The position numbers and the translations under genes were made by a program. DNA of 64,000 nt from the NCBI GenBank assembly GCA_030432235.1, contig JAUIHT010000008.1, positions 124,001 through 188,000 on the forward strand, read 5' to 3'. The notes beneath the pieces are model-generated. The model did not search any database. It saw only the letters and a program-made list of their open reading frames with translations, and was not told the origin of the DNA. This DNA comes from Verrucomicrobiia bacterium (lineage in GTDB: Bacteria > Verrucomicrobiota > Verrucomicrobiia > Opitutales > Cerasicoccaceae). Shown piece by piece: positions 25,123 through 61,460 of this stretch. Position 1 is the stretch's first letter. The number at the start of each line of letters is the position of its first letter.

Positions 25123-28100
25123 CTATTGTGTTACTACGACCCGGATGAATTTGGGTTCATCGCCGATGGGCACCATGGCCGTGCGTCGGTCATCAGTATT
25201 GAGTATCGATAGCGGAACTTCATCTTCAACCCAGTTGGTGAGGTCGGTGGATGTTTCCACACGATAGGCCACATCCGGGCGTCCGGCGTAGAAATCAATC
25301 TGAAGCGCAGACTCCGTGACTAGCGGATTCAAAAAGTGGTCCGTTAGCCGTTCATTGGGATCCAGATCGAACGCATAAGCCATCAGCAGGCTTTTGCCGT
25401 CGCCATTCAAGTCGCTGTCCATGGACTTATCATAGTGGATACCATGTGTAACCAGCCAGGCCGCCTGCGGATAGAGGTTCGTGTCCATCATCTCCGTCCG
25501 GAATCCTTTCCAGGAAGGTGAGGTAAATCCTGTTGCCGTATCCAGATAGTAAAGACGAGCAAAGGGGAAGAACGTACCTATGCCCAATGAGCTAAATAAA
25601 TCGGGACTTTCTCCTAGGTAATATATGCTTCTCAAGAAGAAACAATGTTCAAACGCTTCATCACCGATATCATTGACGTTCTCAGTAATCGTTAGATGTA
25701 ACAGATTCTTGCACTCGTAAAAAGCACGAGCCCCGATACGGGTAACGCTGTTTGGGATTGTATAGGCTCCGCTGCGGCCTCCGGGATACTGGATTAAGGT
25801 TGTTCGATCAGCGGTGAAGAGTGCTGCTTTATCGCTACTGTAGTATATATTTCCAGGGGCCACTTCTATTTTTAACAAGCCATCACAATTCGAAAATGCA
25901 TAGTCGCCAATGCTTGTGACGCTTGCGGGTATCGATACCTCTGTCAGCAAGTCACAATAGCGAAATGCGCCCTCCTCGATAGTGAGTACGCCCTCCGGGA
26001 TTACATGAGTGCCGATTAAGGACCTTGGACTGGAAATTAGACTTGTGTTGCCACCGGTATATAACACACCGCCATGACTGCTGTAGTAGCTATTGTCCGG
26101 ATTCACATTGTAGCTTTGTAGATTGTTGCAATCCTTGAATGCCGAGCTTGCGATGCTGGTTACGCCGTTGCCAATGGTGACACTGGTTAAGCTTTCACAA
26201 TAGCGAAATGCTTCGTTGCCAATACTCGTTACGCTGTCGGGTATATTAATGTGAGCCAAGCTGACGCACTCGTAAAAGCTTTGATTTCCTATGCTGGTAA
26301 GGCTTTGTCCGATCGATATCTCCGTCAGTTTTTCACAATAGGCAAACGCCTTCTCTCCCAAATGGGTGAGTGAATTGCCCAGGGTGATAACAGCCAGGTT
26401 GGGGCATTGCGCAAATGCTTGGTCTCCAATGTCGAGAACACTGTCCGGGATCAAAAGTTTGGATAAGCTTTTGCAGTACTTGAATGCATTATTCCCTATA
26501 TTTTTTACCCCGCTGTTTATTGTCAGATTTATTAGGCTGATACATCCATTAAAGGCACTGTCTCCGATGTTCATAACGCTAACGGGTATTTCAATGTCAG
26601 TTAGGCTATGACAATTGTAGAATGCATATTGATCGATTATGGAAACCGTATTGGGGATCACTAGACTGACCAGGTTTGTGCATTCAGAAAACGTATAGCT
26701 TCCGATGCTGGTAATGCTATTGCCTAAAGTGACATTTGACAAGTTAGAGCAGTTTGAAAAAGTTGAAGACTTTAACTCGGTAATTCCATTGCCGATGATT
26801 ACGTTGGCCAGTTTGTTGCACGAATAAAACGCATGGCTCCCTATCGTAATAACATTGTCCGGGATCATAATGTTAGCTAAACTGTTACACATGTAAAATG
26901 CCGAGTTTCCAATGCTCTTAACCCCAGTGCCAATATTGGTATCCGTAAGATTTACACATAAATAAAAAGCCTTATTGCCAATATCAGTTATGCTGTTGGG
27001 TATGGTCACGCTTGTCAGGTTGCTACATCCAGAAAAAGCTTCCTCCCCTATGTAGATAACGCTATCACTGATGGCCACGCTTGATAAGCTGCCGCACGAT
27101 GAAAATGTACTGGGTTTGATGTGTGTAATGCCATTGCCCAAAGTGACGGTAGTCAGGCTGCCACATTTATAGAATGCGCGTTCACCAATTTCTTCTACGT
27201 TGTCGGGAATGGACAGTGATGTTAGGTAATAACAATTGTAAAAGGCCCCATACCCTATGCTCCTCACCGCATTTCCAATTTCTAGGCTAGTCAGACCCCA
27301 GCACTTGTGAAACGCCCAAGCTCCAATGTTGGTAACACCGTTTCCTAAGGTAATATTGGATAAATTTTGACATTCACTAAACGCGTAGTCGCCAATGTTG
27401 ATAACACTGTCTGGCAGGGCCACGCCTGTCAGTTTGTCGTGATTTTCAAACACACCTTCGCCGATGTTCTCGGTGCCGTCAGGGATGGCATAGGGGCCAC
27501 TCAAGCCATCGGGATAAGCGACCAATGTATTCTGCTCGGATGAGAATAGCACCCCGCCAATACTGTAATAGGTAGCGTTGGCCGGAGCCACATTAATACT
27601 TGTCAAACTATCGCACCCGTCAAATGCCCAGACGCCAATGCTTGTGACGCTACTACTAACCCACACGGTTATCAGATTACTGCAGTCACTAAAAGCCCCA
27701 TGTCCGATACTGGTGATACCGTTGCCAATGGTTACGCTTTTCAGGCTAGTGCAGCGTGAAAACGCGTAAGGCCCAATGTTATTTATATGATTTGGGAAAG
27801 TCACTCCTGCCAAGCTGCGACAACCGCTAAACGCATCTAAGCCAATGTCCGTTACACTGTCGGAAAACGTCACGCTAGTGAGGTTTTCGCAGTACGAAAA
27901 TGCCCCCGTTTCAATATGAGTGATATTGCCACCGATGGTTACGCTTGTCAGATGACAACCTCTAAAGGCGTAGTTGTAGATGCTGGTTACGGGTAATCCT
28001 ACGATTTCCTCCGGTATGACAACATGGCCTGTGTAGTCGTAGGGGAAATCGGTGATGGCAACCTCTGTGCCTTCGCTGTTGATCCGGTAAGTTAAGTCAC

Positions 28101-28224
28101 CAAATTTGTCACCATATGCCACCGACACGATTGAGATAGCGGCAAGCCCCGCGCTCGCCTGAGCAAACCGTGTAATCAGCGATTTTTGTTTCAAAAATAT
28201 CATCAGAGATGGCTGTCTTGCCAT
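25123..28224 (-). CDS. BspA-type leucine-rich repeat surface protein
   Basis: Up to 1033 residues. An ATG seven codons in may be the true start. A signal peptide (SAGLAAISIVSVAYG) precedes roughly thirty LRR_5 (BspA-like) repeats of about 23 residues with the pattern S-V-x-x-I-G-x-x-A-F-x-x-C-x-x-L-x-x-V-x-I-P. Two or three interruptions of the type FSSEQNTLVAYPDG split the solenoid. The C-terminal 120 residues form a distinct domain (LLMAYAFDLDPNE; YRVETSTDLTNWVEDE) typical of Opitutae secreted proteins. Likely an exported binding or adhesion protein. Its composition is more AT-rich than the surrounding core genes. It ends next to the element boundary but lies outside it. Confidence 0.85.
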   Translation of the reverse strand: MARQPSLMIFLKQKSLITRFAQASAGLAAISIVSVAYGDKFGDLTYRINSEGTEVAITDFPYDYTGHVVIPEEIVGLPVTSIYNYAFRGCHLTSVTIGGNITHIETGAFSYCENLTSVTFSDSVTDIGLDAFSGCRSLAGVTFPNHINNIGPYAFSRCTSLKSVTIGNGITSIGHGAFSDCSNLITVWVSSSVTSIGVWAFDGCDSLTSINVAPANATYYSIGGVLFSSEQNTLVAYPDGLSGPYAIPDGTENIGEGVFENHDKLTGVALPDSVINIGDYAFSECQNLSNITLGNGVTNIGAWAFHKCWGLTSLEIGNAVRSIGYGAFYNCYYLTSLSIPDNVEEIGERAFYKCGSLTTVTLGNGITHIKPSTFSSCGSLSSVAISDSVIYIGEEAFSGCSNLTSVTIPNSITDIGNKAFYLCVNLTDTNIGTGVKSIGNSAFYMCNSLANIMIPDNVITIGSHAFYSCNKLANVIIGNGITELKSSTFSNCSNLSNVTLGNSITSIGSYTFSECTNLVSLVIPNTVSIIDQYAFYNCHSLTDIEIPVSVMNIGDSAFNGCISLINLTINSGVKNIGNNAFKYCKSLSKLLIPDSVLDIGDQAFAQCPNLAVITLGNSLTHLGEKAFAYCEKLTEISIGQSLTSIGNQSFYECVSLAHINIPDSVTSIGNEAFRYCESLTSVTIGNGVTSIASSAFKDCNNLQSYNVNPDNSYYSSHGGVLYTGGNTSLISSPRSLIGTHVIPEGVLTIEEGAFRYCDLLTEVSIPASVTSIGDYAFSNCDGLLKIEVAPGNIYYSSDKAALFTADRTTLIQYPGGRSGAYTIPNSVTRIGARAFYECKNLLHLTITENVNDIGDEAFEHCFFLRSIYYLGESPDLFSSLGIGTFFPFARLYYLDTATGFTSPSWKGFRTEMMDTNLYPQAAWLVTHGIHYDKSMDSDLNGDGKSLLMAYAFDLDPNERLTDHFLNPLVTESALQIDFYAGRPDVAYRVETSTDLTNWVEDEVPLSILNTDDRRTAMVPIGDEPKFIRVVVTQ

Positions 28225-28571: not shown

Positions 28572-28648
28572 GGGCCTGTAGCTCAATTGGTTAGAGCAGA
28601 GGACTCATAATCCTTTGGTTCGGGGTTCAAGTCCCCGCGGGCCCACCA
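28572..28648 (+). tRNA. Complete tRNA with anticodon CAT (Ile2 or elongator Met), element-borne
   Basis: All arms can be drawn. Acceptor GGGCCTG pairs with CGGGCCC, followed by discriminator A and encoded CCA (28646-28648). The D arm is GCTC/GAGC, the anticodon stem GAGGA/TCCTT with loop CTCATAA, and the T arm CGGGG-TTCAAGT-CCCCG. It is not an initiator, because the first base pair is G-C. It lies 62 bp inside attL in the same direction as the broken tRNA and differs from it at several positions, so it is not a simple duplication. It probably replaces the function lost by insertion. A CAT tRNA of this shape often reads AUA as tRNA-Ile2. Confidence 0.93.
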
Positions 28649-28652
28649 TTTT

Positions 28653-28677
28653 GAATTTAATACGACTTTTAATACGA
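28653..28677. repeat. Left copy of a 25-nt direct repeat (probable integrase arm site)
   Basis: Exact match to 61436-61460. Each copy holds two tandem TTTAATACGA units. In the circular form the two copies would flank attP at roughly 140 and 90 bp from the crossover, as arm-type integrase sites do in lambda-like elements. Confidence 0.65.
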
Positions 28678-28896
28678 GTTCGTGCATTCAGTTTTGCACT
28701 TTGGGGTGGTCTTTCTGGCCCGATTTTTACGAGTTTTAGGCTGAGCTGTTGAGTTTTGCTCGTTCTCTTCTTTTACCATGTACATTCGCGTAATGCCCCT
28801 GGCTAGAATTGCTCCAATTTCCTGGATGATTTCTTCCTCTTTTGGATTCATGGTGCGTAAAGGGTATAGCTTAGTGCTGATTTCTATCGCCTTCAT
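28669..28896 (-). CDS. Hypothetical small basic protein in the AbiE-like operon
   Basis: 75 residues, overlapping the AbiEii-like gene by ATGA (28893-28896), so it is probably translated as the third gene of that operon. The N-terminal half could form one amphipathic helix (NPKEEEIIQEIGAILARGIT). The C-terminal half is basic and Lys/Arg/Thr-rich (KTRKNRARKTTPKCK), compatible with nucleic-acid binding. Its end reaches into the 25-nt repeat, so it lies at the very edge of the element. No family recognised; it may be a degenerate passenger. Confidence 0.45.
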   Translation of the reverse strand: MKAIEISTKLYPLRTMNPKEEEIIQEIGAILARGITRMYMVKEENEQNSTAQPKTRKNRARKTTPKCKTECTNSY

Positions 28897-29741
28897 ACCC
28901 CGGCAACCTTTTCCAGAAAAGTATTAACAAGCTGGTATGCACGTTGTGCCTGAATGTCTCTTTCCTCCTGGTTGCTGGAGTTATAGAATGCTACTACCTG
29001 TTGCGGGCCGTAGGCATCCACGCTTTTGAACTTCTCACGCAGGTATGCTGTGGCGAGCTGAACATCTTTTTGGTTTGAGGATAAGCGCTTTTTCCAAGCT
29101 TCAGCGAGTTCAGGGATGCCGCCTTGGAAATTTTGGAGGCAGTAACAAATGTCATAGGCATCCTTTGGCTTGTCTCTCCTCTTTAGGGCCACTGCTTTCA
29201 TGATCAGGAAGTCCGGGATTGAAGCGACTTGGATGCTCACCGTATTGCTAGCTCCACTGGCCATATGACCTTCTACCTTGTGGCTGGTAGGTTCATAAAA
29301 CGCAGCTGCACAGCCGTCAGCCTTCAGTAGGCGGAACCCTTGCAGAAGCTTGGGCTTGTTCTTCTCGGTTTCTGCATCTGCGGCGGCGAGAAAGTCGATA
29401 TCCACGACGATTGGTGCGGCTCCATCCTGCAAATCTATCGTTGTTTGTAACTGGAATTCTTTTTCGCCCCTTTTGTAGCGGCGAGTTTCGAGAAGTTGTT
29501 GAAACATCTCGGCATATCGGCCTTCCATCAGTTTATTGGTGTCCAGCGCCAGGTCGACATCGATGCTACCGATATGGGGCACCTCGGCATCGTGGATGAG
29601 TAGTTCCGGTACCCATCCACCAACGAGCACGAGGCAATGTTCGTAGGATGCCAGAACTTGCATAACGTCGACTAGGGCGCGTTTGGCGGCTTCGACTTTA
29701 CGGTCTGTGTATTCTTCTACAAATCTTGGTTCCATCACCAT
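28893..29741 (-). CDS. AbiEii-type nucleotidyltransferase toxin
   Basis: 282 residues with the minimal nucleotidyltransferase signature: GGW at 41-43 (LVLVGGWVPELLI) and the catalytic pair D61-V-D63 (IGSIDVDLALD), then VVDIDFLAA with a further acidic residue. AbiEii/AbiGii-family toxins transfer nucleotides onto tRNA acceptor ends and cause growth arrest or abortive infection. The partner antitoxin gene lies directly upstream and overlaps by 7 bp. It is part of the defence cargo of the element. Confidence 0.82.
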   Translation of the reverse strand: MVMEPRFVEEYTDRKVEAAKRALVDVMQVLASYEHCLVLVGGWVPELLIHDAEVPHIGSIDVDLALDTNKLMEGRYAEMFQQLLETRRYKRGEKEFQLQTTIDLQDGAAPIVVDIDFLAAADAETEKNKPKLLQGFRLLKADGCAAAFYEPTSHKVEGHMASGASNTVSIQVASIPDFLIMKAVALKRRDKPKDAYDICYCLQNFQGGIPELAEAWKKRLSSNQKDVQLATAYLREKFKSVDAYGPQQVVAFYNSSNQEERDIQAQRAYQLVNTFLEKVAGV

Positions 29742-30850
29742 AGAAGGTTAGCGGCCTTCCACACGGGTTTGATCTTCTGCTCAAGGAGTGCTTCTGCGCC
29801 CTCCTGGCCTCGTCCTCCGGCCTGAATGAGGTCGACATAAGTCTGCACGGGGTGGGTCATTGGCATGTTATCGTGCGCCACCCTTTGCTCCCCGGTAAAA
29901 ACGCCTAGATCCTGCGGAACCAGAACGATCACATCCGCTCCCGAGTCCACCTTTTTTAATTCTGTGATTTTCTCGAAATTGCGACGAAAGGTGTCATCCA
30001 TGTAAAGCCAGAGCTTTAGCTCGCCTCTCACATGGGCTGCCTGTTCCGTGGCGGCGGAAAATACTGCGAGGGCACAGTGTGCCTCCTTTTCATTCAAATA
30101 ACTCACTAGTTTCTCGCGTAGTTTGGAGGGCCTTTCGAGCGAGAAGTACTCATGCCGGATATGGTCTTTGAATTGGTAGCTTTGGCTCCATTCACGAAGC
30201 ATCCCCAGCGGGTCATGCAACTTGAAGCCTGTACCACTTTCATCATCGGTAAGGTAAGCCTGGTCTTTTAGGTGGCGGACTACCTTATTGACCAGCCCCA
30301 GGCTGACACCGGGGGAGCATGCATCTCTTAAGCCTCTTTGAGTCCACTTCTGGACTAGGTCCTTATTGGTTAAAAGACTTCGGATAACACGGCCAGCCTC
30401 GGCAGTTCCGAGATTAACTTCAGTGGGGCCGTCTATTTTGACAGGAGCGTATCCTTGTCGTTCTATGTGGAAGAGGTTGGGGACGCTAATTTTACAATTA
30501 CCGGCGAGATCGAACCATCCCCAGCCATGCTCTTCGCATAGTTCGGCCATCCGGGGTGAAATGCGGGCGGCTGCAAGAACGGGAACTTGGGTGCTACGTT
30601 GATTGCCCTCATTGCGAAACTGGCTGAATTGGCTGACATAGGGAAACTGGGATGGGCGTGGGAATGCCTTACAGTCTATTTGCAGGATAGCCTCGCTGCC
30701 GTTGCTGGTCCTTACCCGTGCTTCCAGGTCATACCCTGGGTCATAAGCGCCATCGAATGGTTCGATTTGCACATCGCCAAGCCAGGGGATGCTTTTCAGC
30801 AAACTCTCAATTTGCTCTATGGACTCTGATACTAGTTCTTGCGCGTTCAT
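29735..30850 (-). CDS. AbiEi-type antitoxin/transcriptional regulator
   Basis: 371 residues. The centre and C-terminus fit the AbiEi family of type IV antitoxins: a winged-helix-like stretch (LVQKWTQRGLRDACSPGVSL, LVNKVVRHLKDQAYLTDDE) and the characteristic tail PVQTYVDLIQAGGRGQEGAE followed by ALLEQKIKPVW. The N-terminal 120 residues resemble a restriction-endonuclease-like fold (YDLEARVRTSNGSEAILQIDC). AbiEi proteins both neutralise the toxin and repress their own promoter by binding inverted repeats. Two such palindromes lie just upstream (30862-30881, 30927-30946). Confidence 0.78.
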   Translation of the reverse strand: MNAQELVSESIEQIESLLKSIPWLGDVQIEPFDGAYDPGYDLEARVRTSNGSEAILQIDCKAFPRPSQFPYVSQFSQFRNEGNQRSTQVPVLAAARISPRMAELCEEHGWGWFDLAGNCKISVPNLFHIERQGYAPVKIDGPTEVNLGTAEAGRVIRSLLTNKDLVQKWTQRGLRDACSPGVSLGLVNKVVRHLKDQAYLTDDESGTGFKLHDPLGMLREWSQSYQFKDHIRHEYFSLERPSKLREKLVSYLNEKEAHCALAVFSAATEQAAHVRGELKLWLYMDDTFRRNFEKITELKKVDSGADVIVLVPQDLGVFTGEQRVAHDNMPMTHPVQTYVDLIQAGGRGQEGAEALLEQKIKPVWKAANLLW

Positions 30851-31117: not shown

Positions 31118-32209
31118 CTACCTTTCATCCCATTTAGGGAAACACTCTTTGAGGCGCTCGATGGTTTGTCGCCACTTAGGAGCTGTGGGCTTACAAACTG
31201 AGTTTTGGTTCCCAAAGAAGCCTACCTCATGGAAGGCCTGATTCTGTTTTACAGTTTCAAGCCAGCGGACTTTTACGAAGTATTCGGCTTTTTCAGGGTC
31301 GTCAGCTGATTCCCGGTGGTAATCGGCTTTGAGAACCTCCAGGCATGGCTTTGAATCGCTTTCGGTTTCCACCTGGAATTCTGAAGCTTGAACGGCGGAG
31401 GCTTCAACAATGCCTACCCCGACGAAGCCTTGGCCTGGGATTCTAACCCATATGCGGTCTTTGGGGTTAAGCATTTTGAGGCTTTGACTGTACCAGCTTC
31501 CGCCACCTGCGGAGATAAAACCGTATTTGCGTGCTTCTTCCCAGCTACGGCTTGGGCCGTCACCGAATGAAGCGTAAAATTCGCCATTCCAAGGCTCTTT
31601 GGGGCCAGCCGATTTTGTGGTATTGGCTACGTTTTCTTGAGTTTCCTGTGGGTCGATGAGCCAGGTACGGCTCAAGAGCTGTTCTTCGCCATGCTGGAAT
31701 ACCTGGAAGAAAAAAACGTTTATTGGGATGTCTTTATCGTTAAGGTAGGCTACGATGCGCTCGGTCGATGGGTCTAGTTCTGAGGCACACAGAATGATTT
31801 GGTGGGAACTATTGAGTTGGTCCTCGTCTATCTCGAATCCGAATCGGTTCTTGAACGCATCTTCGAGTTTCTGGCCTGAACTGTAGTTGCGATATATTTG
31901 GGCGATCCTTTCTGAGGTAAGTTGCTCGACCCAGGTTGCGTAGTCCAAGGCTTGTGCCACGATTTCACGGGGTGTTTTGCCCCGTTTGAGTTCGATTAAA
32001 ACGAGGGAAGAGTCAGGTGCGATTGCCAGTAAGTCGATACGACCACCGTTAGGCGTGATTTCCTGCCGTCCGATGAGCATCCATTCACTGGATAGAATCC
32101 GTGGGTCGGCCACGATCATGTCTTCCAGTAACTGCTCGGATACCAGCTTTGATTTGCTCAGAGGCGCAGGGCTTGTCCCGACCTTCCAGATGGCGTGTTG
32201 AATTGGCAT
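31118..32209 (-). CDS. NucS/DUF91-like nuclease-domain protein
   Basis: 363 residues. The N-terminal domain has the PD-(D/E)XK active-site pattern of NucS/DUF91 nucleases: D59 in NGGRIDLLAIAPD, then E73-L-K75 in LVLIELKRGKTPREIVAQAL, and later a QALDYATWV helix. These enzymes cut branched or mismatched DNA. The C-terminal 170 residues are different (RIWVRIPGQGFVGVGIVEAS; WGFISAGGGSWYSQ-like) and resemble EVE/PUA-like modules that recognise modified bases. A modification-dependent restriction role is possible but inferred. It is next to the 962-residue gene, 3 bp apart, and in the same direction as hsdR. Confidence 0.72.
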   Translation of the reverse strand: MPIQHAIWKVGTSPAPLSKSKLVSEQLLEDMIVADPRILSSEWMLIGRQEITPNGGRIDLLAIAPDSSLVLIELKRGKTPREIVAQALDYATWVEQLTSERIAQIYRNYSSGQKLEDAFKNRFGFEIDEDQLNSSHQIILCASELDPSTERIVAYLNDKDIPINVFFFQVFQHGEEQLLSRTWLIDPQETQENVANTTKSAGPKEPWNGEFYASFGDGPSRSWEEARKYGFISAGGGSWYSQSLKMLNPKDRIWVRIPGQGFVGVGIVEASAVQASEFQVETESDSKPCLEVLKADYHRESADDPEKAEYFVKVRWLETVKQNQAFHEVGFFGNQNSVCKPTAPKWRQTIERLKECFPKWDER

Positions 32210-32212
32210 GCT

Positions 32213-35101
32213 CTAAATTTTTAAGTATTCAAAATGTCCAAGTCTGAGGAGCTTTTCTTGGGCTCTTTGTGCGTGTTCCCTTGTTGTTTCATTGTTGCTA
32301 CTAAGACCGACTTTGAGAATAGGCTTTACCTCATCTTCTTTAAAATAGGTGTTTCTTGTGGCCTCCAAGCTGCTGGTTATCATCTCGAAACACTCCAAAA
32401 CGTCATTGGGGTATTTTTCCAGTAGTTCATTTAACGTTTTGACCTCGAATGAAACACCATATCTTTTCGGGGTGCCAAATTTAAGTATTTGTTTATATTT
32501 TTCTAATCTCCATTGAGGACTCAGGCATTCTGCCTTCAGCCAAAATGTGAATTCACGTAACTCGTCAGCGTATCCTACCTTCATTCTCCATTCAAAAAAC
32601 GCCTTTATGCGTTCGAGTATAGATTCAGAGATTTTGGGTCCACTATCCTCTAATGTATGACCGACATAACTGAATAAATTAGACCAGCGCTCTCTGTCTT
32701 CGGAAGTATTTTTGTAGAAATCCTCTAGCAGGCTTTTTTTTCCCGTTAGGTCAAAGCATTCCCACAGATAATAAAGAAATAGATGTTGCCCTAGGGTGTC
32801 CACTACATCACGGCTTCTGTCATCGATTTCATGTAGCTCTTTAAGATGTTGCAGAGCAAATTGGTAGTGGGATTTGAAAATACTATAAGTGTCTGAGAAA
32901 TTTCTCCCATAGCGTAATACTGTAGCGAAGGCATGCTTCCATACGTTGATATTCTCCATGGGAATAATCTCATCTACATGTGCCTTCATCCATTCTTTAT
33001 CTAATCCATAAATGCGATGTATATGGACGGCTAACAGAGCATGCTCAGGTAAAGAGAGCATAGGAGACTGTGTTAAGCGGCTTTCTAGGATGGAGAACAC
33101 TTCCGTGAGGCTATCGTTTTCTTCATGTTTTCGCACCCAGTATCCATATTCTATTAAACTTTCTAGGGCTCGACCTCTCGTTTGGTTGATAGCAGTGCCA
33201 AGTGCGTCGTTAAAGACTTCGTGATCATTGTCTAAGTAATAGTCTCCTTGCTGGCATAGCTGTTTAAGCACCTGGAATACTGGGAATCTTAGCGTAAAAG
33301 GCAAATCGACTTCTTTCTTTAATAGGTGTTCCATGAAGTCGCCTACTGCACGCCTTGGGTAGCTCCATGAAGGTCGTTTCCAGTTTGCGGCACCTTGAAA
33401 CTCGTCTGTGCCTTCAACATTATCATGGTGGGCTAAAACCCCATTACAAAACTCAAGCCACTGCTCGACATTCCCCAAGCCCCTCTCTTTGGCTAGGTTC
33501 TGCATCGCTTGGATTATGCTCGCGACATATAAGGGAAGTTTTATCTCGTCTAGGTGCTCATGCCAAAATTCAAAGCGCTCAGAGCTTTTTAATATTACTT
33601 CTTCGCATACACCTTTAAAGGCATGCATCAGGCCGTTGTGATTGAATTCTTTATGGAAGTCGGCCCGATCATGGTGAACATCGTCCCAGCTATTCAAGAA
33701 ATCGAGCAGCTCTTGATCGTTAAAATTTGAAAGTTCATCTGTGCTTTTAGGGCTTACTTCCGAGACGAATCCTCCTCGAATCCTACTTGACGGTTCCGCT
33801 AGAGGCTCGGGGTCTGGCGTTCCAAGTTTTCCCTTTATACTCTCGAGAATACCTATATGTTTTTCGTCTAAAATTGGCTCAAAAGTCCATAATTGATTCC
33901 TTTGAAAGCTTAGCCTTCTTGCCTCGTAATTTTCTTCGGTAAAGTACTCGCCCATCCATTCTTTTACTTGCTCTCTTGGTGGGCCTTCCAGGATGGCTTC
34001 TATGATTGAATTAAGTTTACTTTTAGACAGTAGCTTATTTCCCAATGCCTGGCAGGCATTACGAATCATAAACTGGAATTCGTAGTTCAAATCGTAACGC
34101 CCATATTCTTTGTGCAGTAAGATTTCATCGCGTATCCAGTCTATATCCGCCGCAGAAGGATAAAGTCCGTAGAGGTAGTGGCGTATCCTTTTGAATACGG
34201 TCCATTTTTGCTTTCTCAAAAGAGAGTCTAAATTCTGAATACTACCTTGGTCATTTTCATACACCTGTTTGCAGGTGAATACTAAGGTTTGAACGGCACG
34301 TTCTTTAGCATATAGCGCAGTACCTTCCGATAGTTCGAGATTTCTACACCAAATTTCAGAATAGTCCTGAGTTTTGCCCTGCTTTATCTCCTCGTCGTTC
34401 TTTGATAGAAAAATCAGGTCAGTTACAGTTCGAGTAAGCAGTTTCGCTGTACTGAAAGGAGCTTTTTTTGCGAGAGGCTGAATCCCTTTTTTTAGTAATT
34501 CTTCGTATTCCCATTGGTCAAACTTAGTAGTTGGTTCCAGATGGCTATAAATAGCACCAATTCCTTCATCGTCTTTATTTTTTTCTTTCTCACTTTTCCT
34601 TGGGTCTTGCTGGAAGGAAATCAATGGAAGTGCTAATTTTAAAGCATCATCACATTCGCCACCATCAACCCAATGGTTTATCAGGTCTCCAAAATGGTGT
34701 GACGAAAAGCGCACGCTTAAGTCTACATGCTCAAGTAATTTTGGCAGCAATTCTACCGACTGTGAAGGTTTTAAATTTAAGGCTATAGTTAGTATGTAGC
34801 CGTAAACGACGGGGTTATCTGTCTTTGGTAATGTGGTAATGATTCTTATTACACTGCATGGGGCTTCCTCGGCTACATTACATAAATAGGATAATTCCGG
34901 CCACTGAGGAAACTGTTGGTAGCCGTCAGGTAACTTAACTGTAGATGGAGGGCGTTTGAATAGCCCCCGTTCTTCAAGAGGCTTAATCCACATTGGATTT
35001 TTTAGCCGTGAAAAAAAGTACCTGCGGTCGACTTCCTTGTGGGTCGAAGCAAGTGCTTGTTCCACTACTTCATCCGTTGGTGTCTTCCAGGATTTCATCA
35101 A
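32213..35101 (-). CDS. Large helical-repeat protein of unknown function linked to hsdR
   Basis: 962 residues, almost entirely amphipathic helices with many Leu, Trp and acidic residues, suggesting an alpha-solenoid. I see no Walker A, helicase, nuclease or transmembrane motif. The start overlaps the preceding gene by 32 bp and the stop is 3 bp from the NucS-like gene, so the four genes hsdR, 234-residue protein, this gene and the NucS-like gene form one leftward unit. AT-rich composition unlike the host backbone indicates transfer. By position it may be a sensor, scaffold or regulator of the restriction system, or part of a separate defence system. I do not recognise the family. Confidence 0.7.
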   Translation of the reverse strand: MMKSWKTPTDEVVEQALASTHKEVDRRYFFSRLKNPMWIKPLEERGLFKRPPSTVKLPDGYQQFPQWPELSYLCNVAEEAPCSVIRIITTLPKTDNPVVYGYILTIALNLKPSQSVELLPKLLEHVDLSVRFSSHHFGDLINHWVDGGECDDALKLALPLISFQQDPRKSEKEKNKDDEGIGAIYSHLEPTTKFDQWEYEELLKKGIQPLAKKAPFSTAKLLTRTVTDLIFLSKNDEEIKQGKTQDYSEIWCRNLELSEGTALYAKERAVQTLVFTCKQVYENDQGSIQNLDSLLRKQKWTVFKRIRHYLYGLYPSAADIDWIRDEILLHKEYGRYDLNYEFQFMIRNACQALGNKLLSKSKLNSIIEAILEGPPREQVKEWMGEYFTEENYEARRLSFQRNQLWTFEPILDEKHIGILESIKGKLGTPDPEPLAEPSSRIRGGFVSEVSPKSTDELSNFNDQELLDFLNSWDDVHHDRADFHKEFNHNGLMHAFKGVCEEVILKSSERFEFWHEHLDEIKLPLYVASIIQAMQNLAKERGLGNVEQWLEFCNGVLAHHDNVEGTDEFQGAANWKRPSWSYPRRAVGDFMEHLLKKEVDLPFTLRFPVFQVLKQLCQQGDYYLDNDHEVFNDALGTAINQTRGRALESLIEYGYWVRKHEENDSLTEVFSILESRLTQSPMLSLPEHALLAVHIHRIYGLDKEWMKAHVDEIIPMENINVWKHAFATVLRYGRNFSDTYSIFKSHYQFALQHLKELHEIDDRSRDVVDTLGQHLFLYYLWECFDLTGKKSLLEDFYKNTSEDRERWSNLFSYVGHTLEDSGPKISESILERIKAFFEWRMKVGYADELREFTFWLKAECLSPQWRLEKYKQILKFGTPKRYGVSFEVKTLNELLEKYPNDVLECFEMITSSLEATRNTYFKEDEVKPILKVGLSSNNETTREHAQRAQEKLLRLGHFEYLKI

Positions 35102-35774
35102 GCTTTCCTATCCGTTCTATGTGGCTGCTCGCTGCAGTGTGAAATAATGCTTCTAGTATACGGAAATGATGCCTGAGCTGCCTTGTAGTTTCTTCATTAA
35201 AAGGTTTTTCTCTCAGGTGTGCATGCTTGTTGAACCATTTCTTTGCTTCTTTCCAATCATGCTGTAGGTTTCCAGGTATCTTTTCGCGATCCTTGTAATC
35301 CAGATACGTTGCGAAAAACATTTCGCTAGCACTTTCGCTCCTCCTTCTGCCTTCGGAGTGTTCTCTGAGCAGTTCCTTTATTTTATCGCATACCAAAAAT
35401 GGAATAGCATGGAAGCTAGTTTCAGGGTTTTCGGTGACTGCTGGTGTTGTATTCCAAGATGCCTGCCAAACTTCCTGAACCCGATCAACTAAATCTGGAT
35501 ATTGGACGCGTTCTCCTGAAATGTTATTCTCATCCTGCGCTAACCTATTCATTAGGTCCCTTCCAGCATGAGAAACAAAGGTGATGTAGCCTGGCGGACA
35601 AGAATCCATCATTTTCGCAGCACCATAGTAAGCCTCAGCGTATATTGGCTGATTCAGATCGTCCTTGAGCCATTTGTGGATTTTCTGCCTTTGTTGTTCA
35701 GGAAGAGACATTTTCTTTATCAAGAAAAGGCTAATGAAGCGCCGTATGCTACTAATGATCTTTGATTGAAGCAT
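35070..35774 (-). CDS. Hypothetical protein between hsdR and the 962-residue gene
   Basis: 234 residues if started at 35774, where the ATG touches the hsdR stop codon; a second ATG at 35711 (MSLPEQQRQK) gives 213. The protein is mostly helical and soluble, with many charged residues (EAKKWFNKHAHLREKPF, RQLRHHFRILEALFHTAA), reminiscent of HEPN-like or helical-bundle proteins, but no R-x4-6-H ribonuclease motif is certain. Tight linkage to hsdR and the solenoid gene implies joint function. Family not recognised. Confidence 0.65.
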   Translation of the reverse strand: MLQSKIISSIRRFISLFLIKKMSLPEQQRQKIHKWLKDDLNQPIYAEAYYGAAKMMDSCPPGYITFVSHAGRDLMNRLAQDENNISGERVQYPDLVDRVQEVWQASWNTTPAVTENPETSFHAIPFLVCDKIKELLREHSEGRRRSESASEMFFATYLDYKDREKIPGNLQHDWKEAKKWFNKHAHLREKPFNEETTRQLRHHFRILEALFHTAASSHIERIGKLDEILEDTNG

Positions 35775-38700
35775 TTACATCTCACTGAGTTTCTCATTCA
35801 GTTCGGAGATTTTCGTGAAGATGGTTTCCACAACTGTGTCGTTGCCTTGGAAAATTTGGTCCGGGCCAGCGTGGTCGATATCGGTAAAGGGCGGCTCATA
35901 GAGCATGGAGGGCTCAATGGTGCCGTGTTTGGTCAGTTGCTGGATGATTAGCTCGATGAACTGGATTTGGCGGCGGTTAAGGCTATGGCTACCGAGTAAG
36001 TCCGAAAATTCCTTTTTGGCTGCCTGTTCGTCCATGCCGACGAGTTTGCGGACGAAGTAGGCGATATTTGGGGCGTCGGAACGGTCCAGCAGGCCCTTGA
36101 GTAACTTTTCGCCGTCCTCCTCTCCGAGTTCGATGAGTATCCTTTGAAGTTCAGTCAGGTCTGTAGGCGTAAGGGACACATTTTGACGGACCTTCTGGAT
36201 GGCGATGTGGTCCATATGGGTGCGCAGGTACTCGGATACCTTTTTCTCGTACTGAGCCCCGGTCATCTTGGGGATGAAGAGCGGTTCTTCTACTCGAATG
36301 CCTTTCACCTCGTCCTCAAACTGCGTGTAAACGACTTTGCGTTTGGTTTTATCGAGGAACTGGACCAGCCCGCGCAGGCGCAGGCGCAGCTCCTCCAGCA
36401 TGTCGAGGTTGATGTCCTGCCAGAAGTCAGCCTCCTGGATGGCGGCAAGGTACCCTAGTTGTGCCTTAACGAGTGGGATGTTGGCTTTTTCCTCCAGCCC
36501 GGAAGCTATTTCGACGATTTTACTGCGGTCCGATTCAAAGCTGCGGTGGTCACCTTCGATATGGCTGATTTGCATACGTAGGGCGGAGGCATCAAAAAGG
36601 CGTGCTTCGAGTTCGTCCGTATCTAGCTCACTGGGAAGCGTTGCGATCTCAGACCGCAGAAGCTCCGTGTCGCCGTCGGACAAGTCTACCCACCTGTCAG
36701 CATCTTGAAATCGTTCGACGGCTTCGAGGTGCATGCGGACGATGAAGTTATCCGTGTTCATGGCCGAGACTTCCGTATGCAGGTGCTTGGCCAGTGAGTC
36801 CCGCAGGCTGACGAACTCCCTGTACTTATCCTTGCATTGCAGGTGGTTGAGCAGGTCCACGCGGGCACGGAAGAGCCGGGTTGCCAGGGAAACGCCAGCG
36901 GTGGAGTCGATGCCGTCCGGGTTTTCCTTAAAGAAATCGAAGTTGAAGCAGAAGTCGAAGATACGGAAGTCCGCCTTGTCCTGCCCATCGGTAAACAAGT
37001 CAGGGCACAGGCGTGTGCCTCGGCCAATCATTTGCCAGAATTTTATCTTTGAGTAAACCGGCTTGAAGAAAACGAGGTTCAGCACCTCGGGCACGTCGAT
37101 TCCTGTATCGAGCATATCCACGGAAATCGCGATATGCGGGGCCTTATCCTTTTGGGAAAAGTCGTCGATGAGGCTCTGCGGGTACTTGGCTTGGTTGTCG
37201 ATGATGCGGGCGAAGTGGCCGGCGTACTGCGGGTAGTGGTGGTTAAAACGTTTCTCGATAAAATCCGCGTGGTCGTGGTTGCGGGCGAAGATGATGGTTT
37301 TGCCCAGGCGGTCACCGCCTTCGACCTTGTGACCATGCTCCATGAGGTGCTTGAGCACTTTGTCGGCGGTGTCCTCATTGAAGAGCCACTTGTTAATGGC
37401 CCCGGCGTTGACCCGAGTGGGCAGAGGGCCGCCATCGGCGTCATCGCCCCAGTCCAGAGCCTCCCACTCGGCCTTCTCCTCATCAGAAAGTTTGTCGTAG
37501 TCGATGCCTTCACGTGGGAATTTTAGGTCGATTTGCTGTACCTTGGGCGGAACGAGGAAGCCATCGCTGACGGCCTGTTCGAGTTCATAGGCATCTGTGG
37601 GGACTCCGTTCTCGAGGTCAAACAGCTCGTAGGTGTTTTTGTCGATTTGTTGGCGGGGGGTGGCGGTCAGGCCAACCAGGAGCGAGTCAAAGTATTGGAA
37701 GATGGCCTTGTACTTCTGAAATACAGACCGGTGAGCCTCGTCGATGATGACCAAGTCAAAGTGCCCCACGCCGAAACGGGCTTCCCCCTCCTTCGTCTCG
37801 TCGATGAGGTTCAGCATGGTCGGGTACGTGCAAACGTAGACGCGGCCTTCCTTTTCCTTCTCCGTGACCAAGTTTACGGGGCTGGAGTCCGGAAGGTTCT
37901 TCTTGAAGGCGTTCGCGGCCTGATTGACCAGCGATACGCGGTCGGCGAGGAAGAGGACCCGCTTGGCCCAGTTGCAGCGCTGGAGTAGGTCCACAAGGGC
38001 GATGGCCGTTCGGGTCTTTCCCGTGCCCGTGGCCATGACCAGAAGCGTCTTGCGTTGCTTTTCGGCGAAACTGGCGCAGATGGTACCGATGGCCCGCTTT
38101 TGGTAGTAACGCCCGGCGATTTCGTCTTTGATGCGCTTTGGATCGAGGGGTTTGAGAGAGTCGCGGCGTAGTATGAGACGTTGCAGCTCATCCCTCTTGT
38201 AAAAGCCCGCCACTTGGCGAGGCGGGTAAGCCCCGTCGTCCCAGAACCACGTTTTGTAGCCGTTTGAGTAAAAAATCAGCGGGCGCTGCCCATGCATCTT
38301 TTCCAGGCAGTCTGTGTAGAGCTTGGCCTGTTGTCTGCCGACATCGGGCTCGACCGTGCTCTTCTTGGCCTCAACAACGGCCAGCGGTTTGCCATCTTCT
38401 CCCCAGAGCACGTAGTCCACATAGCCGACTCCTTCTGTGTTCGGCATACCCATAACCTTGTATTCGCGGTCACGAGGTTGTTCGAGCGGCCATCCGGCGC
38501 GGCGCAGGTCGATGTCGATGAGGTAGCGGCGGGTCTCATCCTCGGAATAGTCGTGTGGGTCCGGCTGGTCCGCGTTGGCGGTCTTGACCATGGCCAACTG
38601 CTCTTTCAGGGCAGTCAACTCGGCATCGGCCTCATCCAAGCGTTTTTGGCGTTCCAAGGCCTCCTTGCTATGGGCTTCTAGTTGAGCCTCCAGCTCCTCA

Positions 38701-39164
38701 AGCTGCTTCTGGGTTTTGGTGGATTCATCGGTAGCGGCTGAGGGCACCCGGGCGTCATCCCAGGCGAAGCCGGATAAGTCAGTACCCGGAGGCGAGTACG
38801 TCCGGGCCAGCCAGTAGAAGACATGATGCAGCTCCTTGACCGCCTGCAGAGCATCGTACTGGCGAATGGGGCGCTGGCTGTGGACGGCCTGGTTACCGAT
38901 TTTCTGGATGGCCCGTGTTTTTTGAAATACGGCCTGCGGCAGAAGGGTTTTGAAGGTCGGCTCGTGTAGGAGGGAGCCCAGCGACGTATCGTAAGGCTCC
39001 CTCAGGCTCTTATCGTGGCGGTACAGCCAGTGCACCGCCGTCTCCAAGGCAAAACGGGCATGAAAGCAGGCTACCCGGGCATCGCCATGTATATAACGCT
39101 CCGCGTGCTCAGCCGCCTCAGCGAGGTCCGGCAGTATACGAGCTAGGGTGGCGAAGTTAGACAC
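35775..39164 (-). CDS. hsdR: Type I restriction enzyme HsdR (motor and nuclease subunit)
   Basis: 1129 residues. In order: an N-terminal DUF4145-like helical domain (1-130), a coiled coil (about 150-195), a PD-(D/E)XK nuclease with D250 and E265-A-K267 (YVDYVLWGEDGKPLAVVEAK), and a superfamily 2 helicase with Walker A ATGTGKT at 378-384. DEAH-type Walker B (LVIIDEAHRS), motif III VGLTATPRQ and motif VI MIGRGTRLCPDLF follow. The C-terminal EcoEI-like helical region binds the methylase. It translocates DNA and cuts at a distance when HsdS finds unmodified sites. hsdS and hsdM lie 4 kb away, beyond unrelated cargo genes. Intact. Confidence 0.95.
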   Translation of the reverse strand: MSNFATLARILPDLAEAAEHAERYIHGDARVACFHARFALETAVHWLYRHDKSLREPYDTSLGSLLHEPTFKTLLPQAVFQKTRAIQKIGNQAVHSQRPIRQYDALQAVKELHHVFYWLARTYSPPGTDLSGFAWDDARVPSAATDESTKTQKQLEELEAQLEAHSKEALERQKRLDEADAELTALKEQLAMVKTANADQPDPHDYSEDETRRYLIDIDLRRAGWPLEQPRDREYKVMGMPNTEGVGYVDYVLWGEDGKPLAVVEAKKSTVEPDVGRQQAKLYTDCLEKMHGQRPLIFYSNGYKTWFWDDGAYPPRQVAGFYKRDELQRLILRRDSLKPLDPKRIKDEIAGRYYQKRAIGTICASFAEKQRKTLLVMATGTGKTRTAIALVDLLQRCNWAKRVLFLADRVSLVNQAANAFKKNLPDSSPVNLVTEKEKEGRVYVCTYPTMLNLIDETKEGEARFGVGHFDLVIIDEAHRSVFQKYKAIFQYFDSLLVGLTATPRQQIDKNTYELFDLENGVPTDAYELEQAVSDGFLVPPKVQQIDLKFPREGIDYDKLSDEEKAEWEALDWGDDADGGPLPTRVNAGAINKWLFNEDTADKVLKHLMEHGHKVEGGDRLGKTIIFARNHDHADFIEKRFNHHYPQYAGHFARIIDNQAKYPQSLIDDFSQKDKAPHIAISVDMLDTGIDVPEVLNLVFFKPVYSKIKFWQMIGRGTRLCPDLFTDGQDKADFRIFDFCFNFDFFKENPDGIDSTAGVSLATRLFRARVDLLNHLQCKDKYREFVSLRDSLAKHLHTEVSAMNTDNFIVRMHLEAVERFQDADRWVDLSDGDTELLRSEIATLPSELDTDELEARLFDASALRMQISHIEGDHRSFESDRSKIVEIASGLEEKANIPLVKAQLGYLAAIQEADFWQDINLDMLEELRLRLRGLVQFLDKTKRKVVYTQFEDEVKGIRVEEPLFIPKMTGAQYEKKVSEYLRTHMDHIAIQKVRQNVSLTPTDLTELQRILIELGEEDGEKLLKGLLDRSDAPNIAYFVRKLVGMDEQAAKKEFSDLLGSHSLNRRQIQFIELIIQQLTKHGTIEPSMLYEPPFTDIDHAGPDQIFQGNDTVVETIFTKISELNEKLSEM

Positions 39165-39227: not shown

Positions 39228-39794
39228 CTACTTCAGCGACCAGCCTTGTTCCTCGGCGACGACTTCAGCGAAGCGTGGGATTGTGGCGTTGAGCTTTCGC
39301 AGGCGTTGCTCGGGGGTTTGTTCTAACTTGTTGGCGATGTCGTAGAGCTTGGCGATGACCAGCTCGGGGCGCATCTCGTACATTGTGATGAGGTAATCCT
39401 GTGGATGGCTGGCCTGAATATCCCAAGGGGCGAGGTCCTCCTTATTGAAATGCTTCAGGTTGAAGGTCAGGATGAGCTGGGCTTCTCCCTTGATGGCGGC
39501 GGCAAGCACGTGACGGTCCTTTTCATCGTTGGTCAGGGCCGGGATGAACGGTTCATAGCCTTCGACTAAGGATTCGGGGAATGTGCGTGTGATTTCCCCG
39601 TCAAAATGCTCAGCCAACTCTTCCGGCCAGCCAAGTTTATCCACATGGGTGCGGTGGGTCTCCGCCAGGATGTCTTTGGAAAACACAGGGGTGTAGAGCC
39701 TGCGTTCCTCGGCTAGCCGGAGGAGCAGGTCACAGACGCTGTGGCTGGCCAGCACACAGGCGTCGAGACACACCCTGAAGTTCGCATCAATCAT
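39228..39794 (-). CDS. PIN-domain toxin of an HTH/PIN toxin-antitoxin pair
   Basis: 188 residues. The N-terminal FRVCLDACVLASHSVCDLLL has the first PIN Asp, an ILAETHRTHV segment supplies the Glu, and TNDEKDRHVLAAAIKGEAQL with LILTFNLKHF supplies the later acidic and Asn positions. This matches long PIN proteins that pair with excisionase-like antitoxins. It overlaps the antitoxin gene by ATGA (39791-39794). Predicted ribonuclease. It lies between hsdR and the rest of the cargo, a common place for addiction modules in restriction islands. Confidence 0.8.
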   Translation of the reverse strand: MIDANFRVCLDACVLASHSVCDLLLRLAEERRLYTPVFSKDILAETHRTHVDKLGWPEELAEHFDGEITRTFPESLVEGYEPFIPALTNDEKDRHVLAAAIKGEAQLILTFNLKHFNKEDLAPWDIQASHPQDYLITMYEMRPELVIAKLYDIANKLEQTPEQRLRKLNATIPRFAEVVAEEQGWSLK

Positions 39795-40252
39795 TCCTCA
39801 CCTTTATAGTCTGAGTCGTAGAGGCCGGCGGCGATGACCCGTTCGTTGAGTTTGTCGAGGGCTTCCCGGCGCTGCTTGGCACGGAGGGCCTCGAACATTT
39901 GTAAATCCCGCAGGTAGACACGACGGTGCGTGCCCACGAAGTGGAACGGAATCTTCTTGTCCTCCAGAAGCTTGACCAGGTGTGGGCGGGACATGCCCAG
40001 GAAGTTGGCGGCGGCCTGGGTGGTAAACTCCTCGTTGGCGGACGTAATGGTGATCGACTGACCGCTGGCGAGCAGGCGCACTGCCTTGGTCAGGATGTGA
40101 AAGAGTGGTTCGGGGACCTCGACGTTGGCGCCTTCGCGGCCAATCATGAGCGGGCCCTCATGCCCATCGATGACCTTTTGGACATGCGCCAGCAGGTCGC
40201 GGTCACCCGGAGATGCCGCGTTTTCGGTGGTGGTGTTCGTGTTCATTTTCAT
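39791..40252 (-). CDS. Excisionase-like helix-turn-helix antitoxin
   Basis: 153 residues with a MerR/excisionase-type DNA-binding segment: TTQAAANFLGMSRPHLVKLL followed by IPFHFVGTHRRVYLRDLQ. The N-terminus is helical and may mediate dimerisation; the C-terminus (RREALDKLNERVIAAGLYDS) likely binds the PIN toxin. Direct repeats AAACGAAA (40312-40319 and 40321-40328) lie about 60 bp upstream and could be its operator. It is translated together with the toxin through a four-base overlap. Confidence 0.8.
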   Translation of the reverse strand: MKMNTNTTTENAASPGDRDLLAHVQKVIDGHEGPLMIGREGANVEVPEPLFHILTKAVRLLASGQSITITSANEEFTTQAAANFLGMSRPHLVKLLEDKKIPFHFVGTHRRVYLRDLQMFEALRAKQRREALDKLNERVIAAGLYDSDYKGEE

Positions 40253-43266: not shown

Positions 43267-44439
43267 TCACAGTTCCCCGTTGAAGGCGCGTTGTTGGAGG
43301 GAGGCGAAGAGGGTGTCCAGCTCGGTGAGTTGGGAGCGCATGCGGGCCTTTTGGGCCTCCACCCGGGTCACGATGTCGGCGAAGCGTTGCTGGAGGTCGA
43401 GCGGGGGCTTTGGGATCGGGATGCCCTGAAACTCTTTGGCGTTGATGTTGGCCATGCCCACGATGTTTTTGCACATATTCTGAAGGTGCTGCTTTATTTG
43501 GGGCGTATTCATGAAGGCTCCGATGTACTCAGGGTCATTCTGTGAGTTAACGATGCCCCGCACCAGGTAACCTGCGAAAGCCATGGGCGTATCCTCTCGA
43601 TACACGGCGGTTTTGCCAACGAGTTCTTTGCTATTCGTACGGTTGAAAAGAATCTGCCCTTTGTGAACTAGGTACTTAGCTGCTTCCTTGCCCGTAAGCT
43701 CAATGTATTTCATAGATTTGAAGTCCCATCCTCCTGAATATGTGATGTTGTTCATACGCAACATAGGGTAACCCTTTTCTTCCAGAATGGCCTTAGTGCT
43801 AGTTCCATAATTCACGGATTCCATCAGGTCTCCAATTTGCACCACCTCCCAGCCTTTGGGATTGGTGACGGGGTCGCCGAAGAGGTCGAGGAAGGTGGAC
43901 TGGAGGAAGGTGTCGAGTTCGGTGAGGGCCTGGCGGCGCTTCTGTCGGAGGGTGTCCGCCGCATCCAGTATCCCCGCTATCCGCTTCTGCTCCTCCAACG
44001 GTGGCAGCGGGATTTCGAAATCCTTCACAATCTTCTGACTAATGTTTGGCTGACCTCCACCGACTCGTTTGGCCAGTAGTTTGTCTTTAGCACCTTTAAG
44101 AACCCTATATAGATAATCCGAGTCGCAGATTTTTGAGTTTGGATAGATGTGGCATACAGCCTGATTTGTGGCAGCTTCTATTGCGAGGCGAGAAACCTGC
44201 CCCACTGTAGCACCATACATAGCAATCAATATAGCTCCTGGCTTTAAGAGTTTTGCCGATGATTCTGTAAGACCCTTAGCGGTGATAAATTCCTCTGCAT
44301 GGTTTACAATGCTTTGAGCTAGTTCTCCAGATTTTATCCATGGTATTGTGCCATTCTTATAATACTCGTTTGCCTTTGAGCGATTTGGAGTTCCCCCGCT
44401 TCCCGTCTCACAAAACTCGCCAATAGATAAAATCCTCAT
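43267..44439 (-). CDS. hsdS: Type I restriction-modification specificity subunit HsdS
   Basis: 390 residues with the two-target-domain layout. The first recognition domain spans about residues 1-150, followed by the conserved helical spacer (IPLPPLEEQKRIAGILDAAD, LRQKRRQALTELDTF). The second domain starts at GDPVTNPKGWEVVQIGDLME and closes with another spacer (IPKPPLDLQQRFADIVTRVE). It determines the bipartite DNA site for methylation and cleavage. It overlaps hsdM by ATGA (44436-44439), ensuring stoichiometric synthesis. Recognition sequence cannot be predicted. Confidence 0.94.
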   Translation of the reverse strand: MRILSIGEFCETGSGGTPNRSKANEYYKNGTIPWIKSGELAQSIVNHAEEFITAKGLTESSAKLLKPGAILIAMYGATVGQVSRLAIEAATNQAVCHIYPNSKICDSDYLYRVLKGAKDKLLAKRVGGGQPNISQKIVKDFEIPLPPLEEQKRIAGILDAADTLRQKRRQALTELDTFLQSTFLDLFGDPVTNPKGWEVVQIGDLMESVNYGTSTKAILEEKGYPMLRMNNITYSGGWDFKSMKYIELTGKEAAKYLVHKGQILFNRTNSKELVGKTAVYREDTPMAFAGYLVRGIVNSQNDPEYIGAFMNTPQIKQHLQNMCKNIVGMANINAKEFQGIPIPKPPLDLQQRFADIVTRVEAQKARMRSQLTELDTLFASLQQRAFNGEL

Positions 44440-45953: not shown

Positions 45954-46153
45954 GAGGGTGTGGTGTAGTTTTGTGCGGCACGGGGGGTTGGGCAATTCTA
46001 TCTTATGGGATGCCTCCTTTTCCAGAAATATGGAGGCGATTTGCCCGAAATGGCCCATTTCGGGGGATGCCTAGGTATGGCTTGGGTTCTGAAAACGCGT
46101 CCTACGGGATTCTGGACGGTCGGTTTTTCGATCTGACAGCCTTTTTACGGACA

Positions 46154-61435: not shown

Positions 61436-61460
61436 GAATTTAATACGACTTTTAATACGA
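61436..61460. repeat. Right copy of the 25-nt direct repeat (probable integrase arm site)
   Basis: Exact match to 28653-28677, with two tandem TTTAATACGA units. It lies between the integrase start and attR. Together with the left copy it would flank attP in the circular element. Confidence 0.65.

Follow-up and report, generated by a model that had tools for sequence, protein, structure and literature searches.

Two described anti-phage systems are among the closest to the locus considered here. In DSR2, an N-terminal effector is joined to a C-terminal sensor of phage proteins, and this C-terminal domain binds a tail tube protein (PMC10981675, in the passages cited here). DSR1 is described as a single gene that carries an N-terminal SIR2 domain ahead of a long C-terminal region, and the C-terminal regions of DSR1 and DSR2 are reported to share limited homology (PMC10973363, in the part cited). 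We analyzed a stretch of 64,000 nucleotides (hereafter the window) from contig JAUIHT010000008.1 of a Verrucomicrobiia bacterium, in which a small gene directly precedes a gene for a large helical-repeat (solenoid) protein that is homologous to the long C-terminal region of DSR1. Both genes lie within a type I restriction-modification (R-M) locus, next to a NucS-like nuclease gene. In our best reading, the two genes are a relative of DSR1 that has a free-standing candidate effector in place of the sirtuin, and we assign a probability of roughly 0.6 to the two genes forming an anti-phage module where a phage-protein sensor controls an effector.

The large protein, which the initial annotation had called a solenoid without a recognisable domain, matches the sensor half of DSR1. 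Its residues 196-931 align to positions 506-1192 of the 1227 in the PADLOC Dsr1 model (PDLC04166, E 2e-29), a model that is also matched by 27 of 31 aligned solenoid relatives, while the NCBIfam Dsr1 model matches at E 7.5e-6, far below its cut-off. The relation holds in the reverse direction, with a solenoid profile recovering a full-length Dsr1 protein of the same phylum (L066, which scores 1409 bits over model positions 1-1225) at E 2e-25 over L066 residues 313-1085. Pfam searches gave no match at E <= 1 to a SIR2 domain or to an AAA/NACHT domain (STAND NTPase) in either the solenoid or the small protein. The window pair is therefore not filed as DSR1, having no SIR2 and a partner that is a separate gene of another family, nor as Avs, having no STAND ATPase. 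DSR2 has the same plan of effector and phage-protein sensor, but no sequence match between it and the window sensor was found here.

The description as a solenoid stood, since the AlphaFold2 model of the 961-residue sensor (mean predicted local distance difference test score, pLDDT, 85.7; predicted TM-score 0.56) is a nearly all-helical repeat. Sequence searches of the PDB with the sensor returned no weighty match, Avs4 included. In a structural comparison with VIA-align, sensor residues 107-961 were superposed on residues 691-1582 of portal-bound Avs4 with Z 11.0 over 572 residues (root-mean-square deviation 7.7 A), which ranked 18th but was the longest match below 10 A among the 50 matches listed. 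Ordinary HEAT proteins tie with it at this Z and, as the tool cautions, helical repeats can score this high even when unrelated. Avs4 also differs from the window pair in having an NTPase domain, although a haloarchaeal plasmid protein (L009) does join an AAA_16 ATPase to the same sensor (Dsr1 E 6e-40). We thus take the Avs4 match as a lead towards binding of a phage structural protein rather than as proof; the absence of DSR2 among the structure matches listed weighs neither way.

To place the pair in a wider context, we used 33 sensor loci from many phyla, obtained from GTDB species genomes in a scan that combined an alignment of five solenoids with two peptide patterns; the list is incomplete, and because the scan was sensor-based it biases any association between small gene and sensor. 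The small gene lies directly upstream of the sensor gene, intact in 10 of the 33 loci and in pieces in one more (L038), and its coding region overlaps that of the sensor by exactly 29 nt in all 12 cases (11 relatives and the window). When the 24 genomes that hold 24 of these loci were searched again with a small-protein profile, a recheck confined to genomes already found, 11 matched, each with one copy located at the sensor. Viral contigs, scanned by pattern, yielded no relative of the small protein or of the sensor, and plasmids gave no small protein and six distant sensors. The 234-aa gene and the solenoid gene form a conserved pair.

The second frame is opened in place by an ATG in the 11 relatives, and in the window this ATG stands one codon past a TTG. 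Alignment of the 12 loci sets the sensor start at ATG 35098 (961 aa) and not at TTG 35101, where the longest open reading frame (ORF; 32213-35101, 962 aa) begins. The longest ORF of the small gene (35070-35774) encodes 234 aa, and its start is probably ATG 35711 (213 aa), which is close to the starts of its relatives; with this start, the gap to hsdR is 63 nt and not 0. The four minus-strand ORFs that had been described as linked by overlaps or gaps of at most three bases are present, with 363, 234 (longest ORF) and 1129 aa for nuclease, small protein and HsdR, but the hsdR gap is wider with the likely start and the solenoid is one residue shorter. An ATG at the second frame fits reinitiation or translational coupling. 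A frameshift fusion of the two genes, considered for the constant overlap, was set aside because this ATG opens the second frame.

The identity of the small protein is less readily established. The window protein gave nothing convincing in Pfam, NCBIfam or PADLOC (best DUF6565, E 0.01) and nothing below E 0.6 in a profile search of the PDB, and its 11 relatives have no Pfam family in common. Matches to LexA_DNA_bind on two of the 11 (best E 0.005) were judged to be chance, and a HEPN identity, weighed on account of the helical character and a conserved R and H, is not claimed. None of the 11 matched PF18165 (pP_pnuc_1) at E <= 1, and a search for this family in 10 genomes gave no match, with the controls likewise negative. 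A profile of eight pP_pnuc_1-like domains fused to other sensors was more informative: among 2450 ORFs, its ten best outsiders were all small-gene products (E 3e-6 to 0.06; one of them the L038 piece), the L027 small protein ranked twelfth behind one unrelated ORF, and the best decoy reached E 0.3 (2450 reversed and 600 shuffled sequences). In the reverse direction, a small-protein profile hit the fused domain of L028 at E 4e-4. Seven columns are invariant across 10 small proteins and 7 fused domains (17 sequences), namely Y49, G51, A52, R72, L78, W107 and H186 in the numbering of the 234-aa form. These results point to a distant homology between the small protein and the pP_pnuc_1-like domain. 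The Pfam name of that domain is 'predicted pPIWI-associating nuclease'; PMC3702460, the presumed origin of this label, does not describe it in the part cited. Given the homology and its position, the small protein is probably an effector, and possibly a nuclease.

Its position is indeed one that other effector-type domains occupy. Across the 33 loci, the slot at the sensor is filled by the small gene in 11 (one broken), by a PIN domain in 9, by a pP_pnuc_1-like domain in 7 and by SIR2 in 2, with the remaining four (L033, L036, L037, L041) cut or without an assigned partner. The PIN_12-type domain is N-terminal on the sensor, or in front of it where the gene is in pieces, an assignment backed by Pfam on L002 and L003, two members from a phylum search. 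Six of the pP_pnuc_1-like N-terminal domains were recognised by Pfam (L016, L021, L028, L031, L034, L035; L028 and L031 pass the family cut-off, over 33-39 residues) and the seventh, in L042, was assigned by profile (E 1e-36). SIR2 is encoded by a separate gene directly upstream of the sensor (L026, L043); the phylum search adds two loci with SIR2 genes (L004, L005; Pfam SIR2_2) and another pP_pnuc_1-like domain by profile (L008).

Sensors that are 68-79% identical bear different partners. For example, the sensor of a small-gene locus (L011) is 79% identical over 891 residues to one fused to a pP_pnuc_1-like domain (L035), and 72% identical over 961 residues to one with PIN (L023). The four partner types require 7 changes on a 28-sensor tree, where 3 is the possible minimum, and forcing the 12 small-gene rows into one clade cost 1007 log-likelihood units (approximately unbiased test, p 4e-58); this tree was built under LG+G4 without a mixture, left out the longest-branched rows (L005, L042, L043) as a test for artefacts, and brings together two long branches, L024 and L025, which calls for caution. 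A first tree of 31 rows under a mixture model gave 11 changes for five labels, L042 then being labelled unknown. Partner types are nonetheless clustered on the tree, with as few changes in 0 of 200 shuffles. A single clade of small-gene sensors is rejected, and the small partner may be ancestral and have been replaced more than once. That such closely similar sensors carry different partners points to exchange, not mere diversity.

The slot also bears on two other explanations of the pair. If the small protein were an adaptor or a second sensor, with the solenoid acting via a host or neighbouring effector, its poor structure model and the failure to find a catalytic fold would fit; however, the small protein stands where PIN and SIR2 stand elsewhere, and it has Y49, R72, W107 and H186 in common with the fused domain, so that we consider such a role rather unlikely. 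An ordinary toxin-antitoxin pair, where one protein counteracts its partner and any sensing of phage is a side effect, would account for two overlapping genes of which the first encodes a small protein, and for their residence on a probable mobile element with other toxin-antitoxin-like genes (below). An antitoxin of 961 aa would nevertheless be unusual, and the presumed antitoxin is here a relative of the DSR1 sensor that is elsewhere fused to PIN or pP_pnuc_1-like domains or encoded behind SIR2 genes, making this explanation improbable.

We therefore favor a sensor-effector module, which on paper would work as DSR and Avs systems do. The solenoid, as a member of the family of the DSR1 C-terminal part, most likely binds a protein that the phage produces in the course of infection. 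The small protein would be kept inactive by the sensor, be freed on binding of the phage protein and then attack nucleic acids of phage or cell, while the 29-nt overlap would couple translation of the two genes and keep them together. Phage-protein sensing, the effector role and nuclease activity of the small protein, and the outcome for the cell are all inferred.

Several observations weigh against this module. The small protein is poorly modelled (pLDDT 50), and a PDB search with the model gave no match at E <= 0.001 and no catalytic fold. The window copy itself is not significant against the fused-domain profile (E 20) and is tied to the fused domain only via relatives to which it is 41-47% identical; hhalign of small protein against fused domain gave a probability of 14% (E 0.0019), and Pfam pP_pnuc_1 covers only 32-39 residues of the fused domains. 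Matches to the sensor fold are mostly generic HEAT proteins with low scores (in Foldseek importin-beta, CAND1 and similar proteins, TM-scores about 0.1-0.26), the window sensor is a long branch in the sensor trees with a best identity to relatives of 41%, and the deep forks of these trees are weak. Finally, DSR1 reportedly inhibits phage without killing the cell (PMC10952713, in the part cited), so an abortive outcome cannot be assumed.

A broader proposal, which we consider evenly balanced, is that one DSR1-related and possibly Avs4-related sensor has repeatedly been joined to unrelated effectors (SIR2, PIN and a pP_pnuc_1-like domain, the last either fused or, in the window, free-standing in an overlapping gene) and, in haloarchaea, to an AAA ATPase. 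It would form a bacterial counterpart of NLR-like modular immunity, mostly NTPase-free and often placed within R-M loci as a backup for failed restriction. No description of the partner exchange or of a window-type pair was found among the titles and abstract starts listed in searches of open-licence literature. If the exchange is functional, sensors that are 72-79% identical and carry three partners are ready domain-swap pairs, with which one could study what a DSR1-type sensor recognises and how the signal is passed on. The proposal, if true, would also add an effector family that so far bears just a 'predicted nuclease' label, and provide another case of immune modules carried within restriction loci.

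The window holds a complete type I set, with hsdR, hsdM and hsdS in the same locus (Pfam, NCBIfam, PADLOC). Searching the flanks of the sensors (up to 8 kb; phmmer with seeds from the window), we detected hsd genes in 8 of the 33 loci, and a ninth (L012) has a remnant of the HsdR N-terminus 5 bp upstream of the pair. No type I genes were found in the other 24; the hsd count is a lower bound, as some contigs are short and window-derived seeds miss other hsd families. Among the selected neighbours that were scanned for other R-M types, four of the 24 loci showed one: L027 and L033 have type III res directly downstream of the sensor, and L015 and L021 have type IIG or Eco57I-type genes nearby. 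By rough arithmetic on one genome, the 5.7-Mb genome of the window, which has two hsdM-like genes at E <= 1e-10, a random 19-kb stretch would contain an hsdM-like gene in about 1% of cases. The excess of R-M genes near sensors may be explained by defence-island clustering alone. A type I neighbourhood of the sensor is recurrent but not obligatory, and the earlier idea of an accessory layer on type I restriction thus survives as a statement of location (9 of 33 loci).

These neighbourhoods raise the possibility that the pair is a guard, silenced by the R-M complex and firing when a phage disables restriction. PrrC, which the type I enzyme linked to it keeps silent and which an anti-restriction factor of the phage activates, offers a precedent (PMC2610378, in the part cited), and the recurrence of hsd genes, of the L012 remnant and of the type III and type IIG or Eco57I-type neighbours is in keeping with it. 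PrrC and RloC likewise represent toxic effectors that ride with hsd genes, and an anticodon nuclease is annotated in one type I locus viewed here (L088); no homology between them and the window pair was noted, however, and window-type pairs are found mostly without hsd genes. Moreover, hsd genes accompany some sensors (L016, L022, L035) but were not found within about 7-8 kb on each side of others that are closely similar (L017, L018, L023, L029, L038), so that type I restriction cannot be the general trigger. With obligate type I linkage absent, and other R-M genes seen in only 4 of the 24 loci in which the lower-bound search found no type I gene, we consider a guard unlikely and retain the phage-protein sensor as the preferred reading.

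Two further genes recur in these R-M loci. A gene of 626-629 aa lies between hsdS and the fused effector-sensor gene in L016 (5368-7248), L022 (5336-7225) and L035 (5372-7252), and the L016 copy belongs to AAA_15/AAA_21 in Pfam. Genes related to HNH nucleases directly follow PIN-sensor genes in hsd loci (L024 10833-11984, L025 10835-12094; the L003 copy is matched by Pfam HNH).

The nuclease gene downstream of the sensor is a different matter. Its product is a full-length and clear member of the PADLOC PDC-S11 candidate nucleases (residues 1-358 of 363, E 3e-159), a family that stands outside the pair. It had been described as NucS-like with an EVE/PUA-like C-terminus, of which the first part holds for its core: an alignment with 2vld identifies a NucS_C-like PD-(D/E)XK core with D59, E73 and K75 invariant in 12 of 12 sequences, a D-E-K set that is catalytic in NucS. 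Membership of the NucS family over the whole protein is not reached (NucS_C 23.3 bits against a cut-off of 24; NCBIfam NucS 26 against 216 bits). A modification-sensing EVE end is at best weakly indicated, with Pfam EVE found in one of 12 nuclease relatives (E 0.014) and not in the window protein.

At none of the 33 sensors did phmmer (E <= 1e-3) detect a homologue of this nuclease, although 29 of these loci extend downstream by at least 2.9 kb, and 8 of the 10 intact small-gene loci by at least 6.7 kb. Its relatives occur in 69 plasmid records and in 4 of 240 genomes of the phylum (that of the window included). We viewed 14 of these contexts (11 of the plasmid records and 3 genomes) and found type I genes close by in six (L044, L045, L052, L053, L082, L088), a BREX set in L087 and, at a distance of 1.9 kb in L083, a gene for an N-6 methylase, with no type I gene recognised in the remaining six and no R-M gene near the nuclease relatives of L046 and L086. 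PIN-GNAT-EVE proteins have been reported near type I systems (PMC7641849, in the part cited). The nuclease is thus an independent passenger with a type I link of its own.

These distributions decide against an hsdR-linked unit of four genes, as had been proposed, in which the nuclease would either serve the solenoid as its effector or add a layer to HsdR. In the window, the longest ORFs do overlap or lie 3 nt apart, and six of the 14 contexts viewed place a nuclease relative close to hsd genes. But the nuclease was found at no sensor among the 33, the 8 intact small-gene loci with ample downstream sequence included, and 24 loci showed no type I gene in the lower-bound search, so that the four genes are not conserved as a unit; nuclease relatives without a nearby R-M gene, and the differing GC content of nuclease (0.505), solenoid (0.418) and hsdR (0.566), likewise make this arrangement very unlikely. 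On co-occurrence with hsdR and matches to known systems, the four-gene idea fails, while that of a separate defence system gains strength for the small gene and the solenoid gene but not for hsdR and the nuclease.

Two exact 25-bp direct repeats (Table 1), AT-rich and partly self-repetitive, bracket the R-M genes together with the pair, the nuclease and an AbiE-type pair. These repeats, together with the tRNA-Met gene, the integrase and the mobilization gene, probably mark an integrative mobilizable element of about 32.8 kb, on which the pair and the nuclease are independent passengers of the type I locus. GC content ranges from 0.418 in the sensor and 0.439 in the small gene to 0.505 in the nuclease, 0.566 in hsdR and 0.616 in hsdM, and this spread among the cargo genes fits separate arrivals.

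Table 1. Coordinates of the pair, the R-M genes and the probable carrier element in the window.
Feature	Position	Strand	Basis or remark
tRNA-Met	28572-28648		tRNA prediction
Left 25-bp direct repeat	28653-28677	plus	exact repeat, 4 bp after tRNA-Met
AbiEi/AbiEii-type pair	28893-30850	minus	downstream of nuclease; Pfam AbiEi_2 E 1e-7, AbiEii E 9e-12
NucS-like nuclease, 363 aa	31118-32209	minus	ORF; PADLOC PDC-S11 (PDLC04916 E 3e-159)
DSR1-like helical-repeat sensor, 961 aa	32213-35098	minus	PADLOC Dsr1 E 2e-29; AlphaFold2 model
Overlap of small gene and sensor, 29 nt, coding	35070-35098	minus	same length in 12/12 loci
Small partner gene	35070-35711 (213 aa, likely start); longest ORF 35070-35774 (234 aa)	minus	relatives in sensor loci
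hsdR, 1129 aa	35775-39164	minus	Pfam ResIII, EcoEI_R_C, HSDR_N; PADLOC REase_I E 6e-191
Helix-turn-helix/excisionase-like + PIN pair	39228-40252	minus	hsdS-hsdR interval; HTH_17 E 4e-7, PIN_3 E 1e-7
Two overlapping genes, 203 + 340 aa	41579-43209	minus	hsdS-hsdR interval; no convincing family; GC 0.40-0.43
hsdS	43267-44439	minus	NCBIfam type I S subunit model E 5e-38, below cut-off
hsdM	44436-46058	minus	NCBIfam MAD2 methyltransferase E 2e-32, hsdM E 1e-22, both below cut-off
Candidate relaxase, by position only	56809-58110		follows MobC/NikA gene; no Pfam match
MobC/NikA mobilization protein	58107-58706	minus	NikA-like E 2e-8, MobC E 6e-6
Tyrosine integrase, 288 aa	60105-60971	minus	Phage_integrase E 4e-10
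140-aa ORF overlapping upstream end of integrase, other frame	to 61362	minus	no Pfam match
Right 25-bp direct repeat	61436-61460	plus	exact repeat, 73 bp beyond ORF upstream of integrase

The integrase region (60105-61362) is read in two overlapping frames of 288 and 140 aa and is perhaps broken or mis-sequenced. Within the interval between hsdS and hsdR, the PIN protein of the helix-turn-helix pair matches the RSP_2648 PIN family at E 2e-26, below the cut-off, and the neighbouring 203- and 340-aa genes, the first of which looks membrane-like by eye, are another possible passenger of the hsd locus. Just outside the element lies a gene for a 1033-aa BspA-type leucine-rich-repeat protein (25123-28224; LRR_5 E 4e-198).

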